The notes below the pieces were generated by a model. It saw nothing but the letters and a program-made list of their open reading frames with translations. It searched no databases and had not been told where the DNA came from. A DNA stretch of 64,000 nt from Brevinema andersonii (lineage in GTDB: Bacteria; Spirochaetota; Brevinematia; Brevinematales; Brevinemataceae). The stretch is taken from assembly GCF_900112165.1 (NCBI RefSeq), contig NZ_FOKY01000001.1:248001-312000 (forward strand), read 5' to 3'. Positions within the stretch are counted from its first letter, which is position 1. Each line of letters starts with the position of its first letter. Made by a program: the position numbers and the translations under genes. Of this stretch, positions 3,032 through 18,751 are shown piece by piece.

Positions 3032-4723
3032 ATGAATAATTTAGAAACAAAACTATACCGACTCAATAAGTGCAAATACCCGCTTTACAAGGCCATTTTG
3101 GGGAAATATCAAGGACAAAATTTTCAATTTTGTGTCGATTCAGTACAACCGGATCCATTTGCTCCTCCATCTAAAATACGTGTGCTTATTCCGTTTGAAA
3201 TGACTCATTTTTCTCAGGATTTTATCTCTGGTACCATAAAAACTGAAGCCTTTTGTGATGCTATAGGACGTATTTTTGCAGAAAACATCCGTATGTACGT
3301 CAAAGAGAATCGTGGATCTGGCAACAGTGGATTTTGTGGAATTCGCTACGGAAAACAAAAAATCATCCCTTCAAATGCTGTTATCATCAATAATAAAAAT
3401 GAAATCGAATTAAAAATACTAGCAGGATTACCAGGCTTTGGACGCAACATTGCAGCCAAAGAAGCATGCGCTCTACTTATCCATGAAATTCCCAAAGTTA
3501 TTCAATCAACATTTTATTCGGGCAATTATTTTAACTACATATCTGAATTTATCAGCCTTTATCAACGGCAAGAGTATTTGCGTGCCGAATGCAAAAAAAA
3601 GAATCTTATTGCTTTTATTGCAAATGGATCTTTACTGGCGCGAGAATCGTCTGTCAGTGATAAGCCCATGAAAAATGCCATAAAATTTCAGTCGCCTAAA
3701 AGCCTTGAACAAACATTAACACTAAGCGACGGCTTTTCTATCACTGGCATGGCTATCCCTAAAGGTATCACTCTAATTGCTGGCAGCGGATATCATGGAA
3801 AATCAACATTGCTTAATGCTTTAGGACATGCTATTGTCAATCACATTGCAGGAGACGGGCGGGAATTTTGTTTTGTCGACCGAGATGCCGTATTTTTACG
3901 TGCTGAAGACGGTCGTCCTATTGCTGGTGCTGATATTTCTCCGTTCATCAACAATTTACCCAATAATCGATCATCAAAACAATTTGAAACTAATAATGCC
4001 AGCGGTTCAACATCACAAGCAGCTAATTTAATCGAAGCTCTTGAAGCTGGAACACGAGTTTTCTTAATTGACGAAGATGTTTCTGCTACTAATTTTCTTA
4101 TTCGCGACCCCAGAATGAGTCTATTAGTAAACGACACAGACGAGACCATTACGCCATTGACAGCAGCCATTCCGTTTTTAAAACAACAAGAGGTCTCTAT
4201 TATTATGGTCACTGGAGCACTTGGCGATTTCATAAACTTAGCTGATCATGTTATTGTTGCGCATGACTATCAATATCAGGACGCAACAATTCAAGCTCGA
4301 GAAATCGCACAACGATATCCTTTGACAGCAGTTGACTTTAGTGAATTTAAATTCAGCAGCAACCGAAAAATCATGTACAATCTATCTTATGACGGCAAAA
4401 AAAATAAACCTTTTCTCAAAAGTGAAAATTCAAAAATATTGTTTGGAAAAAAAACTATAGACTTAACCTTATGGCCTCATTTGTTTGATATCTCTCAGTA
4501 TGAAACCTTGGGTGCTATTTTAGCTTATGCGAACGATAAAGGCTACTTTAAAGAACCAATTATCAAAGTATGGGACCTCATTAGCAAAGACATTCATCAG
4601 TATGGTTGGGATATTTTCTCAACAACAAGCTCAGAATCATGGAGATATATAGTTGCAACACGACCTGTGGATTGGCATGCAGCTTTATGCAGGCTACGTA
4701 ATTTAAGAACGGTTATTTCCTAG
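3032..4723 (+). CDS. Predicted ATPase of the ABC class (COG3044 / ABC_ATPase family)
   Basis: A soluble 563-residue protein of the stand-alone ABC-class ATPase family. No membrane segments are visible. The P-loop GSGYHGKSTLLNAL lies near residue 250, a signature-like SGSTSQAANL near 323, and Walker B with its acidic residue, VFLIDED, near 345. The family's bacterial role is not established; a trypanosome homologue (MRB1590) takes part in mitochondrial RNA editing. The gene lies 9 bases downstream of polA and is probably co-transcribed. Its last 21 bases overlap the 3' end of the convergent glycosyltransferase gene. Confidence 0.88.
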   Translation: MNNLETKLYRLNKCKYPLYKAILGKYQGQNFQFCVDSVQPDPFAPPSKIRVLIPFEMTHFSQDFISGTIKTEAFCDAIGRIFAENIRMYVKENRGSGNSGFCGIRYGKQKIIPSNAVIINNKNEIELKILAGLPGFGRNIAAKEACALLIHEIPKVIQSTFYSGNYFNYISEFISLYQRQEYLRAECKKKNLIAFIANGSLLARESSVSDKPMKNAIKFQSPKSLEQTLTLSDGFSITGMAIPKGITLIAGSGYHGKSTLLNALGHAIVNHIAGDGREFCFVDRDAVFLRAEDGRPIAGADISPFINNLPNNRSSKQFETNNASGSTSQAANLIEALEAGTRVFLIDEDVSATNFLIRDPRMSLLVNDTDETITPLTAAIPFLKQQEVSIIMVTGALGDFINLADHVIVAHDYQYQDATIQAREIAQRYPLTAVDFSEFKFSSNRKIMYNLSYDGKKNKPFLKSENSKILFGKKTIDLTLWPHLFDISQYETLGAILAYANDKGYFKEPIIKVWDLISKDIHQYGWDIFSTTSSESWRYIVATRPVDWHAALCRLRNLRTVIS

Positions 4724-5470
4724 CTTTTTCTGCTGCCCTGTCACTACATACCAAAAATACATAATAATTAGCACAAAAAATCGGAAAATTTTGGCAATAT
4801 TAAAAGGATGAGTTAGTATTTCATGAAGCCCTAAAAGGCCTTTATCCTGCATGGAAAGCGGCGGAACTGATTTGCGGCCTGCGATAATTTCAAAACTATC
4901 ATCACAGCCGATAACGACACCGTTCTTGAAAAGTGCAAAATTTTTATTAATCCATAATTCTTGATATTTGTCATTACCTAAGTTGAACAAACCTAAATTA
5001 GCTGCTGTTTTGCGGATAGCAATAAACACTTTTCCCATTTCTTTCAGTGCAATTTTTTCAGGATAAGCACTGACAATGCGAATACCTTGAAATGATTTAC
5101 TGACTTTTTGAACGGTTGTAAACAGAATATTTTTAGTGGAACCATAAAAACTAACCATCGATTGACATTCTGATGCCACAGATAATGCATCCAAAACATA
5201 AGTAACTGCCAATGCAGGCTTAATGACTTTGCCGTACATATGATAAGAAAACCACGAAACCAAACTGGAAGCACAAAGCACTACTTCTGCTTGATTAATT
5301 GTTTCAAAAAGTTCGCGGTTAAAAAGCGCTTGAAAAAATTTTTTTTCCGTAAGGATAATAATCCGAGCATATTTTTTATGATGAAATCTATCATATAAAT
5401 AATTCCGCCATTCATCTCGGGACACATCTGTAACCTTTACTTTAAATATTTTATATTCGGAAAATTTCAT
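4703..5470 (-). CDS. WecG/TagA/CpsF family glycosyltransferase (GT26)
   Basis: A 255-residue member of the family that transfers N-acetylmannosamine-type sugars to lipid-linked acceptors in envelope polysaccharide synthesis. The C-terminal region GCDDSFEIIAGRKSVPPL followed by KGLLGLHEIL matches the typical GxxFDfxAG...aP...GLeWl pattern, and the middle region fits the Rossmann-like fold. A hydrophobic stretch FFVLIIMYFWYVV near the C-terminus may anchor it to the membrane. No other polysaccharide genes adjoin it. Acceptor and sugar cannot be told from sequence. Confidence 0.82.
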   Translation of the reverse strand: MKFSEYKIFKVKVTDVSRDEWRNYLYDRFHHKKYARIIILTEKKFFQALFNRELFETINQAEVVLCASSLVSWFSYHMYGKVIKPALAVTYVLDALSVASECQSMVSFYGSTKNILFTTVQKVSKSFQGIRIVSAYPEKIALKEMGKVFIAIRKTAANLGLFNLGNDKYQELWINKNFALFKNGVVIGCDDSFEIIAGRKSVPPLSMQDKGLLGLHEILTHPFNIAKIFRFFVLIIMYFWYVVTGQQKKLGNNRS

Positions 5471-5632
5471 ATATCCTCTTAAATGCCATTCTATACATTA
5501 TGAATCGTTTTTTTCAATTTGTCAACAGAAACATATTTGCTCAAAATTCCTAATGAAATGCCGAGATTTTCTTAACTGAAAAAAAATTTTACAGAGCTAA
5601 AGATTTAACATATACTTTTAAAAGAGGTATTA

Positions 5633-6016
5633 ATGAGAAAATCTATCACTTTAATAATGCTGGCATCGTGCAGCGTACTACCGCCAAACTATCAACAAAT
5701 GCTTATCGGCTCATGGAGTAGTATAGAAACTATTAATATTTCAGGCGGAGATACGGATAATATCATTTACAACTCAACCTATGCAGCCGATGGTTCCTAT
5801 CGTATTGAAGTAAACCATCCTGTACAAGGCATCAAAATTAGCAATTTTATCTACAAAACTGGTTATCTTTCGCCTCATCCGTCAATAACACTGCTTGATC
5901 CCACCACTTTTCAAGCAGCATCACTTCCTATTTACTATTATTTTTCTAACAATATGCTGGTAACATCTACTAACTCAAATTTCCGGCTCGACCGAATATG
6001 GACCCGAGTACCCTGA
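5633..6016 (+). CDS. Small lipoprotein, lipocalin-like, unknown role
   Basis: A 127-residue protein with a short signal ending in a lipobox LASC, so it is probably lipidated at Cys13. The mature part starts with MLIGSWSS, a pattern typical of small lipocalin-type domains (G-x-W near the N-terminus), followed by alternating beta-prone segments and a conserved-looking C-terminal RLDRIWTRV. AGAGG lies before the ATG. It is a single-gene unit between a divergent glycosyltransferase and the gene-free 6.0-6.47 kb interval. Other small exported proteins in the window share the same outline. Confidence 0.65.
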   Translation: MRKSITLIMLASCSVLPPNYQQMLIGSWSSIETINISGGDTDNIIYNSTYAADGSYRIEVNHPVQGIKISNFIYKTGYLSPHPSITLLDPTTFQAASLPIYYYFSNNMLVTSTNSNFRLDRIWTRVP

Positions 6017-6017
6017 T

Positions 6018-6061
6018 ATTCTAAGTTTAGTTATACAGGTTCTTTTTTAGAATTTTTTTTT
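6018..6061 (+). terminator. Probable weak rho-independent terminator after the 5633 lipoprotein gene
   Basis: ATTCTAA (6018-6024) can pair with TTAGAAT (6047-6053), followed by eight T. The stem is AT-rich and the loop is long, so termination is likely weak. Confidence 0.4.
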
Positions 6062-6227
6062 CTTATACATTACCATCCAAACTTATAAGTATATTAAATA
6101 TTTAAAACTACAGTGAAATAGAGTAATTTCAATGAAATATATGAAAAAATATCAAAAATTTTAATCAATAGCTTTATAATTTCTTTTTTATTTCCGTTGA
6201 GATCTATATAAATTTTTAAAAAAATTC

Positions 6228-6256
6228 TTGACTTATTTTAATACCTGACCGATAAT
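6228..6256 (+). promoter_or_regulatory. Near-consensus sigma-70 promoter for the candidate small RNA
   Basis: TTGACT (-35, 6228-6233) and GATAAT (-10, 6251-6256) are separated by exactly 17 bases. The predicted start is about 6262-6264. No credible protein start follows, and the first transcribed bases are one arm of a 15-bp helix. Confidence 0.7.
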
Positions 6257-6261
6257 AATTT

Positions 6262-6442
6262 GAACTTTCCTTCTTCTGAATCCATTGGACATTTTTTCTC
6301 GTTTTAAAAAAAACGTGTTGTGCGTCTTTGACCTCAAATTAGTTAGGATCACCTGCAGTGGTCGTACGATTTCGGTCATGGATGTGCATTCGGATATCCA
6401 GGAAAGAAGGAAAGTTCAGCGTACGGCCCTGCAGGATTTTTT
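6262..6442 (+). ncRNA. Candidate structured small RNA of about 180 nt, family unknown
   Basis: Immediately after a strong promoter, 6261-6275 (TGAACTTTCCTTCTT) is perfectly complementary to 6404-6418 (AAGAAGGAAAGTTCA), a 15-bp closing helix. Inside it are a hairpin at 6300-6315 (CGTTTT-AAAA-AAAACG), a hairpin at 6347-6363 (GATCAC/GTGGTC, one G-U pair), a TGACC/GGTCA helix (6329-6333 with 6374-6378), and TGGAT/ATCCA (6379-6383 with 6396-6400). A second long helix (6352-6368 with 6420-6435) is followed by six T. The interior is more GC-rich than the surrounding spacer. I looked for hallmarks of tmRNA, RNase P RNA, SRP RNA and 6S RNA and did not find them. It may be a lineage-specific regulatory RNA. 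Confidence 0.6.
6352..6442 (+). terminator. Long helix plus T-run ending the candidate RNA
   Basis: 6352-6368 pairs with 6420-6435 through 16 pairs, including one T-G, with one bulged T (6359). It is followed by A and six T (6437-6442). It resembles an intrinsic terminator but has a 51-base apical segment. That segment contains the 3' arm of the RNA's closing helix, so termination and the closing helix may be coupled. Confidence 0.45.
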
Positions 6443-6470
6443 CGCCGTACAAAACTTTATTTTCCCGTCT

Positions 6471-7184
6471 TCATAGGTGATTGGGAAACCCAAGCGGCAT
6501 ACTACGGTGTGCCATTTTTAATGCTTCCTCAGCTGCGCTAAGTCGCAAATACTGAGGTACTATACATTCTAATCCATCTTCTGACGGTTTGAAAAATTTT
6601 AACCTCTTATTTAACAATTCTTTAAATCCACTGGCTTGAGTATCCTGTTGAAAAAATGCATCCGGTAGAAAATCATATAAAAATTCCATACCATTGCCTA
6701 TTACCATAACTTTTTTAGCGGCAAGCTTGCTAGCCAAACATTTTATTTCATCTGCCCAAACGGCTGGAAAAACATCAATATCCGCAGCAACACGTTGCCC
6801 ATCAAAAAATGCAGCAGTAAAAATTTTTTTCATTTTAGCATCCATACAAGGTACTACTAATGTTTGGGAATCAAAATTGGCAGACAAAGCCAGAACCTCA
6901 AGCGAGGATACCACCCCTAATAACTTATCTCCTAACCATGCCCACGTCCGAACGACAGAAAAACCAATACGCAATCCCATAAACGAACCTGGACCTCCTC
7001 CAAGAACAAAAGCATCAATATTATGCAGAGACAATTGATTTTCCTGCAAAAGATTATCAACCTGAGGAATTATTTCAGTCTCCAAGTTATGCACCTCAAT
7101 ATCTCGAACATCAGTATATGTAGGATTTTTCAAAGCCAGCAGCATTTTTTTTGCATTTGATGTATCTATTCCCAAAATATTCAT
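6471..7184 (-). CDS. tsaB: tRNA threonylcarbamoyladenosine synthesis protein TsaB
   Basis: A 237-residue ASKHA-fold protein that partners TsaD and TsaE to put threonylcarbamoyl on A37 of ANN-reading tRNAs. It starts MNILGIDTSNAKK and has the hallmark VLGGGPGSFMGLRIG near residues 60-74. TsaB proteins bind TsaD and are not themselves catalytic. The ATG overlaps the rsmD stop (TAATG), so it is translationally coupled at the end of the pyrH-rsmD-tsaB run. tsaD and tsaE are not in the window. Its 3' end lies 29 bases from the T-run of the convergent candidate RNA. Confidence 0.93.
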   Translation of the reverse strand: MNILGIDTSNAKKMLLALKNPTYTDVRDIEVHNLETEIIPQVDNLLQENQLSLHNIDAFVLGGGPGSFMGLRIGFSVVRTWAWLGDKLLGVVSSLEVLALSANFDSQTLVVPCMDAKMKKIFTAAFFDGQRVAADIDVFPAVWADEIKCLASKLAAKKVMVIGNGMEFLYDFLPDAFFQQDTQASGFKELLNKRLKFFKPSEDGLECIVPQYLRLSAAEEALKMAHRSMPLGFPNHL

Positions 7185-17038: not shown

Positions 17039-18751
17039 GTGATCGGAACAGAACAATCACCAGCTACAGGCGAATCCAACGAATACATAGGTATCAACTT
17101 TTTTAATGAATTTGATGAACATGATGAAGTATTTCAAAAAATCTACCAGGATATGAGTCCTTGGCAGAAATTTTTAAGGAATATCATAAAAATATTTAAC
17201 AAAAATAAGCTACGGGCATTTTATTTGAAATGCGGGTTGAAGCGCATTGAAAAGGATCTCCATGAAACGCTACCCAATTGGTATATTGCACATAGTAAAG
17301 CACTAGGACCTAAATTTGCAGATACTCTCTATGAGTTTACGCGTGCTCTAGCTATCATAGCTCCCATTTTAAAAGCCACTGTTATCAATTCTAACATCAA
17401 AACTTGCACAATATCCATAGAACCATGCTTGTTAGAAATTGTTTTTTATGCTTTATATGGTGAAGATTCAGTCAAAAATTATCCTTTTTCGGCTGAGGAA
17501 ATAGAGCATTTTTTGAAAGAAACATCTATCGGTTCCTCCGATAGAAAAATTAAAATTAAAATACAAAATTTTTTGGAAGATTTTTCGGAATCAGACTTTG
17601 AGTCGATCGACTATTATTATACAAATTTTATTTATCTAAGCCGGAATTTATCAGTACCATTGATGGATTTTCTGAGACGTTTTAATATCCACGCATCGCT
17701 CCAGCAGGAAAATAACAACTGGAGTCCCGTAACTTTATCCGCAATTTCCCACTACTTGGAAAAGTTATATGTAGCAATTATGCTTGTTGATCTGAATAAA
17801 ATTGATTTTTTTCGGCTCGACCAGCTGCAAAATGCCCGATTCCTAATTGAAAAAGGCTCCAAAGAACATCCCATTGATAACGCTATTCTCGAAAAAGCAT
17901 GGAATACAATAATTGATACCATTGGAACATTTAAAATAAATAATAATCTACTCAAACTTATCCAGCTTGCACACAAAGACCCCGGTTACCGCATCAGCTA
18001 TCAAAAAGCCCACTTTAATATTCACGAAAGGTATATTAAAATCTTAAAAGAACGAGTCTTCGGCATTGTTAAACGCACAGCACGAAACTCGCTGAAACAA
18101 GAAATGCAAAATTTAGTGCAAAATATTATCTCAACAGGAACAAATAATCAAGATTTAACGAGTGTAGGAGTATTTACAGTAAGCAATTCAGACAAAATTC
18201 ATGAGGTAATATCAGAAGGATTCGCTCATGTTCATGTAATTACTTTGATGCAGATTTTTATTGTCAAATTTTACAAGCCTTGGTTGAAAGTCCTGCTAGG
18301 ATCATGCACAGTAAATGCACAGTTTACGCAACCTTCTGTTAGTACTGAACTCAATTCGGTTTATAAGGTTCTCAACAAAATTACAGATCAGTTTAACCAA
18401 TTTGTGATTGATGTGCATCCGACTTCGTCTATGGGGCTAAGGATCACAAAACTCCTTGAAGCCCATAAACACAGTCGCAGCGACAAACATCTTTTAAAAG
18501 TTTTCACGGAATCGCTTAATAAACAGGCAGATACTTTAGTGCGAGAATTTGCAGGAATTTTTTCGCCGTTGCAGAATTTTATTTCTCTGCTTCTTAAGGA
18601 TATGCAACAAAATTCAAAATCCTTCATTACCAATATCAATACGCTTAAGGTTCTGCAGGAGCCTGAGACAGTAAGAAAATTACAAGAACTCAAAAATTTC
18701 AGCACCAATGTAATGGAACTGCTGAATATTTCTACACAGGAACAAGTCTAA
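17039..18751 (+). CDS. Large helical protein resembling the spirochaetal DUF5312 family
   Basis: A 570-residue soluble, mostly helical protein with no signal peptide. The start is GTG 17039 with AAAGGA about eight bases upstream. The length, the opening with an acidic stretch and then WQKFLRNIIKIFNKNKLRAFYLK, and the position beside ricT-like and housekeeping genes recall the spirochaete-restricted DUF5312 proteins. That assignment is from memory of the family and is not certain. No catalytic motif is evident. It lies 58 bases upstream of hflX and may share its transcript. Confidence 0.6.
   Translation: MIGTEQSPATGESNEYIGINFFNEFDEHDEVFQKIYQDMSPWQKFLRNIIKIFNKNKLRAFYLKCGLKRIEKDLHETLPNWYIAHSKALGPKFADTLYEFTRALAIIAPILKATVINSNIKTCTISIEPCLLEIVFYALYGEDSVKNYPFSAEEIEHFLKETSIGSSDRKIKIKIQNFLEDFSESDFESIDYYYTNFIYLSRNLSVPLMDFLRRFNIHASLQQENNNWSPVTLSAISHYLEKLYVAIMLVDLNKIDFFRLDQLQNARFLIEKGSKEHPIDNAILEKAWNTIIDTIGTFKINNNLLKLIQLAHKDPGYRISYQKAHFNIHERYIKILKERVFGIVKRTARNSLKQEMQNLVQNIISTGTNNQDLTSVGVFTVSNSDKIHEVISEGFAHVHVITLMQIFIVKFYKPWLKVLLGSCTVNAQFTQPSVSTELNSVYKVLNKITDQFNQFVIDVHPTSSMGLRITKLLEAHKHSRSDKHLLKVFTESLNKQADTLVREFAGIFSPLQNFISLLLKDMQQNSKSFITNINTLKVLQEPETVRKLQELKNFSTNVMELLNISTQEQV

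Follow-up and report, generated by a model that had tools for sequence, protein, structure and literature searches.

Pseudoknotted riboswitches and T-box leaders, as collected in Rfam, pair a loop with the tail of the RNA and place competing hairpins beside a U tract, and the mRNAs of type I toxins such as hok and aapA form multicopy families with pairing between the 5' and 3' ends and with alternative folds. 6S RNA (RF00013) is about 180 nt long and has paired 5' and 3' ends and a stable, rod-like nested fold. The LhrC small RNAs (sRNAs) of Listeria monocytogenes are encoded in multiple copies and use CU-rich motifs to pair with mRNA around the Shine-Dalgarno sequence (PMC4132741). Here we analyze a 64,000-nt stretch of the Brevinema andersonii genome (the window; positions 248001-312000 of contig C1 in the 1.5-Mb, 39-contig genome G000) and describe an element at positions 6261-6442 of its plus strand that shares traits with each of these systems. 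Judged from sequence, it is with a probability of about 85% an independently transcribed, noncoding sRNA gene with a pseudoknot fold, one member of a dispersed paralogous family.

With LhrC the family has in common several chromosomal copies, pyrimidine-rich stretches and a terminator that is part of the RNA (PMC4132741). Unlike in LhrC, the pyrimidine-rich stretch here lies in a stem, the helices are copy-specific and the terminator is a helix of the predicted pseudoknot; homology was judged by the absent Rfam match only. The size, the paired ends and the stable nested fold recall 6S RNA, but the candidate is multicopy, contains a helix between its tail and its apical loop and does not score as 6S, for which the genome most likely has a separate gene. 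In contrast to riboswitches and T-box leaders, the family has no constant downstream gene and no Rfam match and appears to consist of free-standing genes, and in contrast to the hok and aapA mRNAs its 13 copies hold no conserved peptide.

Architecture of the probable small RNA locus

The nearest relatives compared were G001, G002 and G003, three genomes of the sister genus within Brevinema's family; counts over 13 loci refer to those examined from the own genome, G002 and G003. Searches employed covariance models, of which R1 was made from the window candidate alone and R2 and R3 from its paralogues. An earlier note on this DNA had proposed an unassigned structured sRNA with its own sigma70-type promoter, and this proposal is supported by the 13 loci, which share promoter, predicted fold and terminator and show strong covariation. 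The promoter that it had read (TTGACT at 6228-6233, 17 nt, GATAAT at 6251-6256) is found in the sequence, as are the perfect 15-bp inverted repeat 6261-6275/6404-6418 and the T6 run at 6437-6442. Only two further perfect repeats of 15 bp or more within 250 nt occur in the 64-kb window, one of almost pure A/T and the other terminator-like with zero loop. We also agree that the interval contains no credible gene, its sole open reading frame (ORF) being a 63-aa TTG frame without a Pfam match above cut-off. Four internal hairpins had been counted as well; internal structure is indeed predicted, but it is better described as a hairpin at 6300-6315, a long central helix C and an apical hairpin D. 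Overlooked at that time were helix B, which is both terminator stem and part of a pseudoknot, and the multicopy nature of the gene. The elements of the locus are:

6228-6233 (+): -35 box TTGACT; TTGAC[A/T] at the same place in 13 of 13 loci
6251-6256 (+): -10 box GATAAT after a 17-nt spacer; same spacing in 13 of 13 loci
6262-6263 (+): predicted transcription start (G/A), placed by spacing, 6-7 nt past the -10 box
6261-6442 (+): sRNA gene, about 181 nt, as delimited with covariance models R1-R3
6261-6275 (+): 5' arm of helix A, pyrimidine-rich; perfect inverted repeat, covariation in the swap test
6300-6315 (+): small hairpin CGTTTT/AAAACG in the 5' part; a hairpin at a similar position in some other copies
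6319-6333 (+): 5' arm of helix C; predicted fold, swap test
6334-6346 (+): pre-apical stretch with letters in common, TCnAATTAGTATA-like in many copies, from the listing of core sequences
6347-6363 (+): apical hairpin D, GATCAC-CTGCA-GTGGTC; its loop and 3' side also belong to helix B
6352-6368 (+): 5' strand of helix B, CCTGCAG(T)GGTCGTACG; compensated change to GCTCATAG in other members
6374-6388 (+): 3' arm of helix C; predicted fold, swap test
6404-6418 (+): 3' arm of helix A, purine-rich; perfect inverted repeat, swap test
6419 (+): single purine joining helix A and helix B; present in 12 of 13 loci, from the printed tails
6420-6435 (+): 3' strand of helix B, CGTACGGCCCTGCAGG, the terminator stem; tail-to-apical pairing, swap test
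6437-6442 (+): U tract of the terminator (T6); a T-rich run after helix B in every copy

Fold and covariation

The minimum free energy predicted for the RNA is -57.8 kcal/mol, compared with -42.5 +/- 4.0 kcal/mol for dinucleotide shuffles (z -3.8), and none of 200 shuffles was as good. Helix B joins 6352-6368 to 6420-6435 by 16 bp (-28.3 kcal/mol), leaving a single U bulged, and is followed directly by A-UUUUUU; among 1000 shuffles of both regions none equalled this cross-pairing of the tail with the apical region. Helix B crosses the 15-bp helix A, so that the two together would make up a pseudoknot, and for the same reason nested folding programs cannot show both at once.

The promoters of all 13 loci have a TATAAT-like -10 box and match 10-12 of 12 consensus positions. 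Helix A begins 4-8 nt past the -10 box in each of them, and the 5' end of the RNA should therefore fall inside the helix. Many copies have an apical core similar to TCnAATTAGTATAAATCGC-(loop)-GCGGTTTGTACGT. For the helices we carried out a swap test that makes no use of an alignment, pairing each 5' arm with the 3' arms of all other loci and comparing the result with 200,000 random assignments. As evidenced by this analysis, the own partner of a helix A arm was the best one in ten out of ten loci and, after extension to the full set, in 12 of 13, and in neither case was any permutation as good. The same result (0/200,000) was obtained for helix C, and for helix B two of the 200,000 permutations were as good. 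The letters of helix B are CTGCAG/CTGCAG or near to it in most own copies, and CTCATAG/CTATGAG in copies of the relatives and in the one on contig C8. It is difficult to see how stems could differ in their letters between loci yet remain self-complementary unless pairing is under selection.

Pyrimidines make up 134 of 185 paired letters in the 5' arms of helix A (p ~9e-10 assuming independent letters, which they are not fully), and the 3' arms are purine-rich though their letters vary. This points to more than the requirement for a bare helix, which would not keep the polarity.

Hairpin D and helix B use a common strand. D or an equivalent is present in the predicted folds of the variants examined, and when folds are predicted for transcripts of increasing length, D and C appear before A.

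Distribution of the family

Covariance models and a motif search together yielded at least nine loci in the own genome, three in G002 and two in G003. Using R1, more full-length copies were found in the own genome on C27, C7, C23, C3 and C18, with E values of 2e-7 to 3e-6. The last four matches lie at contig ends, where C23 can be joined to C7, and C3 to C18, by exact overlaps of 352 bases, and thus represent two loci with a duplicated unit of about 366 bp in common that shows one difference inside. The unit comprises the promoter, the sRNA and a second terminator-like hairpin with T6 (L142:1-366 with the end of L145, and the start of L143 with the end of L144), and this near-identical duplication broke the assembly at both places. 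R3 added C4, C28 and C1:416379 at E 2e-14 to 2e-9, and C1:9690 at 4.5e-4. A search for the apical core motif further added C8, whose flanks show promoter, helices and terminator; the reversed control pattern gave no match in the same genome. A possible degenerate copy on C20 (L238:7231-7264, minus strand), with the apical-motif match AGCTCACAGTGGTTTGTATG and a partial downstream complement, is maybe decayed and was not accepted.

In the sister genus, the copy on C26 of G002 was found with R2 at E 8e-11 before any G002 sequence had entered a model, and the one on C100 of G002 with R3 at E 1e-19. The remaining copies, on C30 of G002 and on C118 and C47 of G003, scored weakly (E 0.08-0.36), yet inspection of their upstream sequence shows promoter, helix A and helix B in place; their RNAs are longer, with about 207, 211 and 320 nt, respectively, which accounts for the weak scores. 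Some sister-genus copies (L167, L166, L162; about 207-320 nt) contain the extra long hairpins TACTACTTGCACA / TGTGCAAGTAGTA.

Outside this family, R3 gave no convincing match in the order or in the class when about 150 candidates were scored per genome. The phylum was searched less deeply with R2, in 393 genomes and with only six candidates scored in each, and weak matches from the phylum (R2) and class (R3) searches, such as those in G286 and G015, were unconvincing. BLAST of the locus against 40 relatives returned only chance-level matches, as did phage and plasmid records. An 86% BLAST match at window positions 18550-18584 is at chance level and lies in apparent coding sequence, and a scan of IMG/VR for the exact apical motif gave 49 stretches, none of which has the fold and which we take to be chance matches. 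As far as tested, the family thus appears to be restricted to the spirochaete family that contains Brevinema.

The segments of the RNAs have no above-threshold match in Rfam, and the window locus has none even at E<=10; we regard the sub-threshold matches of a microRNA model and a trpB model to a G002 copy as due to chance. The earlier exclusion of transfer-messenger RNA (tmRNA), RNase P RNA and signal recognition particle (SRP) RNA is upheld, as no covariance model for them matches at the locus, and for tmRNA ARAGORN gave the same result; no search was made for the copies of these RNAs that the genome itself should have.

Genomic contexts and alternative explanations

The window copy is situated in an AT-rich spacer between a small lipoprotein-like gene (5633-6016, plus strand) and tsaB (6471-7184, minus strand), and its GC content is 42%, versus 17% in the upstream spacer. 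A comparison of window positions 4703-7184 with L073, L024 and L125 showed that in the sister genus wecG is convergent with tsaB, while here it is inverted along with the lipoprotein gene. A large OmpA-like gene found between wecG and the lipoprotein gene in the sister genus is missing from the window, and the right-hand junction of this rearrangement adjoins the sRNA. In the relatives tsaB and wecG are about 14 and 31 bp apart, and the spacer behind the lipoprotein gene is about 60 bp long; none of these spacers holds the RNA. The earlier note had taken such a lack of support in the tsaB-flanking spacer of relatives as grounds for abandoning the RNA; the observation is literally as described there, but it does not bear on the RNA because the family is dispersed and non-syntenic.

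The copies are intergenic and stand beside unrelated genes. The window copy faces the convergent tsaB 28 nt past its U tract and the copies on C27 and C28 also face opposite-strand genes, whereas other copies are followed on the same strand by proS (144 nt), a tRNA-Pro cluster (186 nt) or a FliM/FliY-like gene (178 nt). One copy thus precedes a tRNA cluster that begins with tRNA-Pro (L142:444-518) and another a proS-like gene for prolyl-tRNA synthetase (L239:5864-7549), which may be coincidence. These same-strand neighbors, together with the shared strand that makes D and B mutually exclusive, would suit cis-acting leaders (riboswitch, T-box or attenuator) in which read-through into a downstream gene would depend on whether D or the terminator helix B forms. 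We regard this as improbable. Riboswitches and T-boxes sit in the 5' leader of a regulated gene, a position that the three copies facing opposite-strand genes do not have; the downstream genes are without a common function, and helix B, with a U tract behind it in every copy, is far stronger than hairpin D.

A mobile element at the DNA level, of the miniature inverted-repeat transposable element (MITE) type or similar to repetitive extragenic palindromes (REP), might mimic an RNA by its terminal inverted repeats. Copies are dispersed, there is one recent 366-bp duplication, and the copy on C28 (L236:2468-2631, minus strand) is embedded in a prophage tail operon, on the strand opposite to it and immediately ahead of the tape-measure gene. 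The terminal repeats differ among copies, however, so that a single transposase is unlikely to read them. Covariation is seen in helices A, B and C alike, promoter and terminator are held at a fixed spacing, and the 366-bp copies show no evident target-site duplication. This explanation is accordingly very unlikely.

Hardly credible is a type I toxin-antitoxin family, in which each locus would be a tightly folded toxin mRNA with end-to-end pairing. Multiple copies, stable end pairing and alternative folds are what the hok and aapA mRNAs display too, but no ORF is common to the 13 copies in position, frame and sequence, and three copies of the own genome are without any plus-strand ORF of at least 16 aa.

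In the order's three other families the 6S model of Rfam does score, but it gives no convincing match in the four genomes of Brevinema's family. Its single match in the own genome, of 17.5 bits, falls within a protein-coding gene, and at the window locus the RF00013 gathering threshold is not reached. In the rest of the order 6S lies downstream of a CvpA-like gene, beside a gene for a 97-aa protein. Here an RNA of about 140-160 nt, laid out like 6S and with ends complementary to each other, comes after the CvpA-like gene (C5:29861-30295; also in G001-G003); RF00013 misses it in all four genomes (L124:1330-1500, minus strand, in the own genome; L121, L122 and L123 in the others). This RNA is most likely the 6S of the lineage, which sustains the exclusion of 6S by the earlier note: as the CvpA-adjacent position holds another RNA, and the candidate is not beside that gene, the candidate would be something other than 6S. 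That it is nevertheless a divergent 6S unscored by Rfam, as its similar size, end-paired rod and strong promoter might suggest, is the least credible alternative of all, given a 6S-like RNA with GCGTAAGGC...GCCTTACGC ends on C5 and its counterparts in the relatives, and a candidate that is multicopy and pseudoknotted.

Discussion

The loci thus appear to be independent, each with its own promoter and intrinsic terminator, the arrangement of a multicopy trans-acting sRNA. Several points weigh against an sRNA gene family with a pseudoknot fold. The copy at C1:9690 has a shortened tail and is maybe decaying, no copy was found in G001, and the distribution in the sister genus is patchy. The swap tests use related sequences and permutation corrects only partly for kinship, the signal for helix B comes partly from two subfamilies, and alignments made by a model lean to the structure of that model, although the arms of helix A are ungapped. 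The comparison covers one genome of the genus itself and three of the sister genus. The competition between D and B, finally, possibly makes the RNA a switch instead of a stable pseudoknot.

Transcription of such an sRNA gene might proceed as follows. Helix A would close the 5' end against a segment close to the 3' end, and the central helix C would bear the apical hairpin D. D is predicted to fold first and, carrying the inner part of the B strand in its loop, could nucleate pairing once the 3' tail emerges. Pairing of the tail with the apical strand puts the U tract directly after a strong stem, such that formation of helix B would both end transcription and lock the RNA into the pseudoknot, with helices A and B presumably stacked across one purine.

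Concerning its use, we tentatively favor a stable trans-acting regulatory RNA whose pyrimidine-rich 5' arm is possibly directed against Shine-Dalgarno-like sequences. The polarity of the arm may mean that, once opened, it pairs with Shine-Dalgarno regions as the CU-rich motifs of LhrC do, and copy-specific helices would limit cross-pairing. Almost as likely is that an RNA-binding protein recognizes the shape and the conserved apical core, with the RNA serving as its scaffold or decoy.

The family of self-terminating pseudoknot sRNAs is apparently new, and among the Brevinema papers listed none has small RNAs as its subject. We propose, with considerable reserve, a new class of dispersed bacterial RNAs that end themselves by a pseudoknot; the terminator being the last helix of the tertiary fold, only correctly folded RNAs would be released, while copies would have diverged to own stems, which would let many similar shapes exist side by side in a cell without cross-pairing, and would have spread by duplication and prophage. 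A single-sequence covariance model can find paralogues within one genome where Rfam and BLAST see nothing, and the copy-specific stems that it led to represent a natural series of compensatory mutants. Through its pseudoknot the structure seems to tie the folding of the RNA to the termination of transcription. At least nine copies of one structured RNA are a large investment for a 1.5-Mb genome, and imply an RNA-based function in this little-studied spirochaete lineage.
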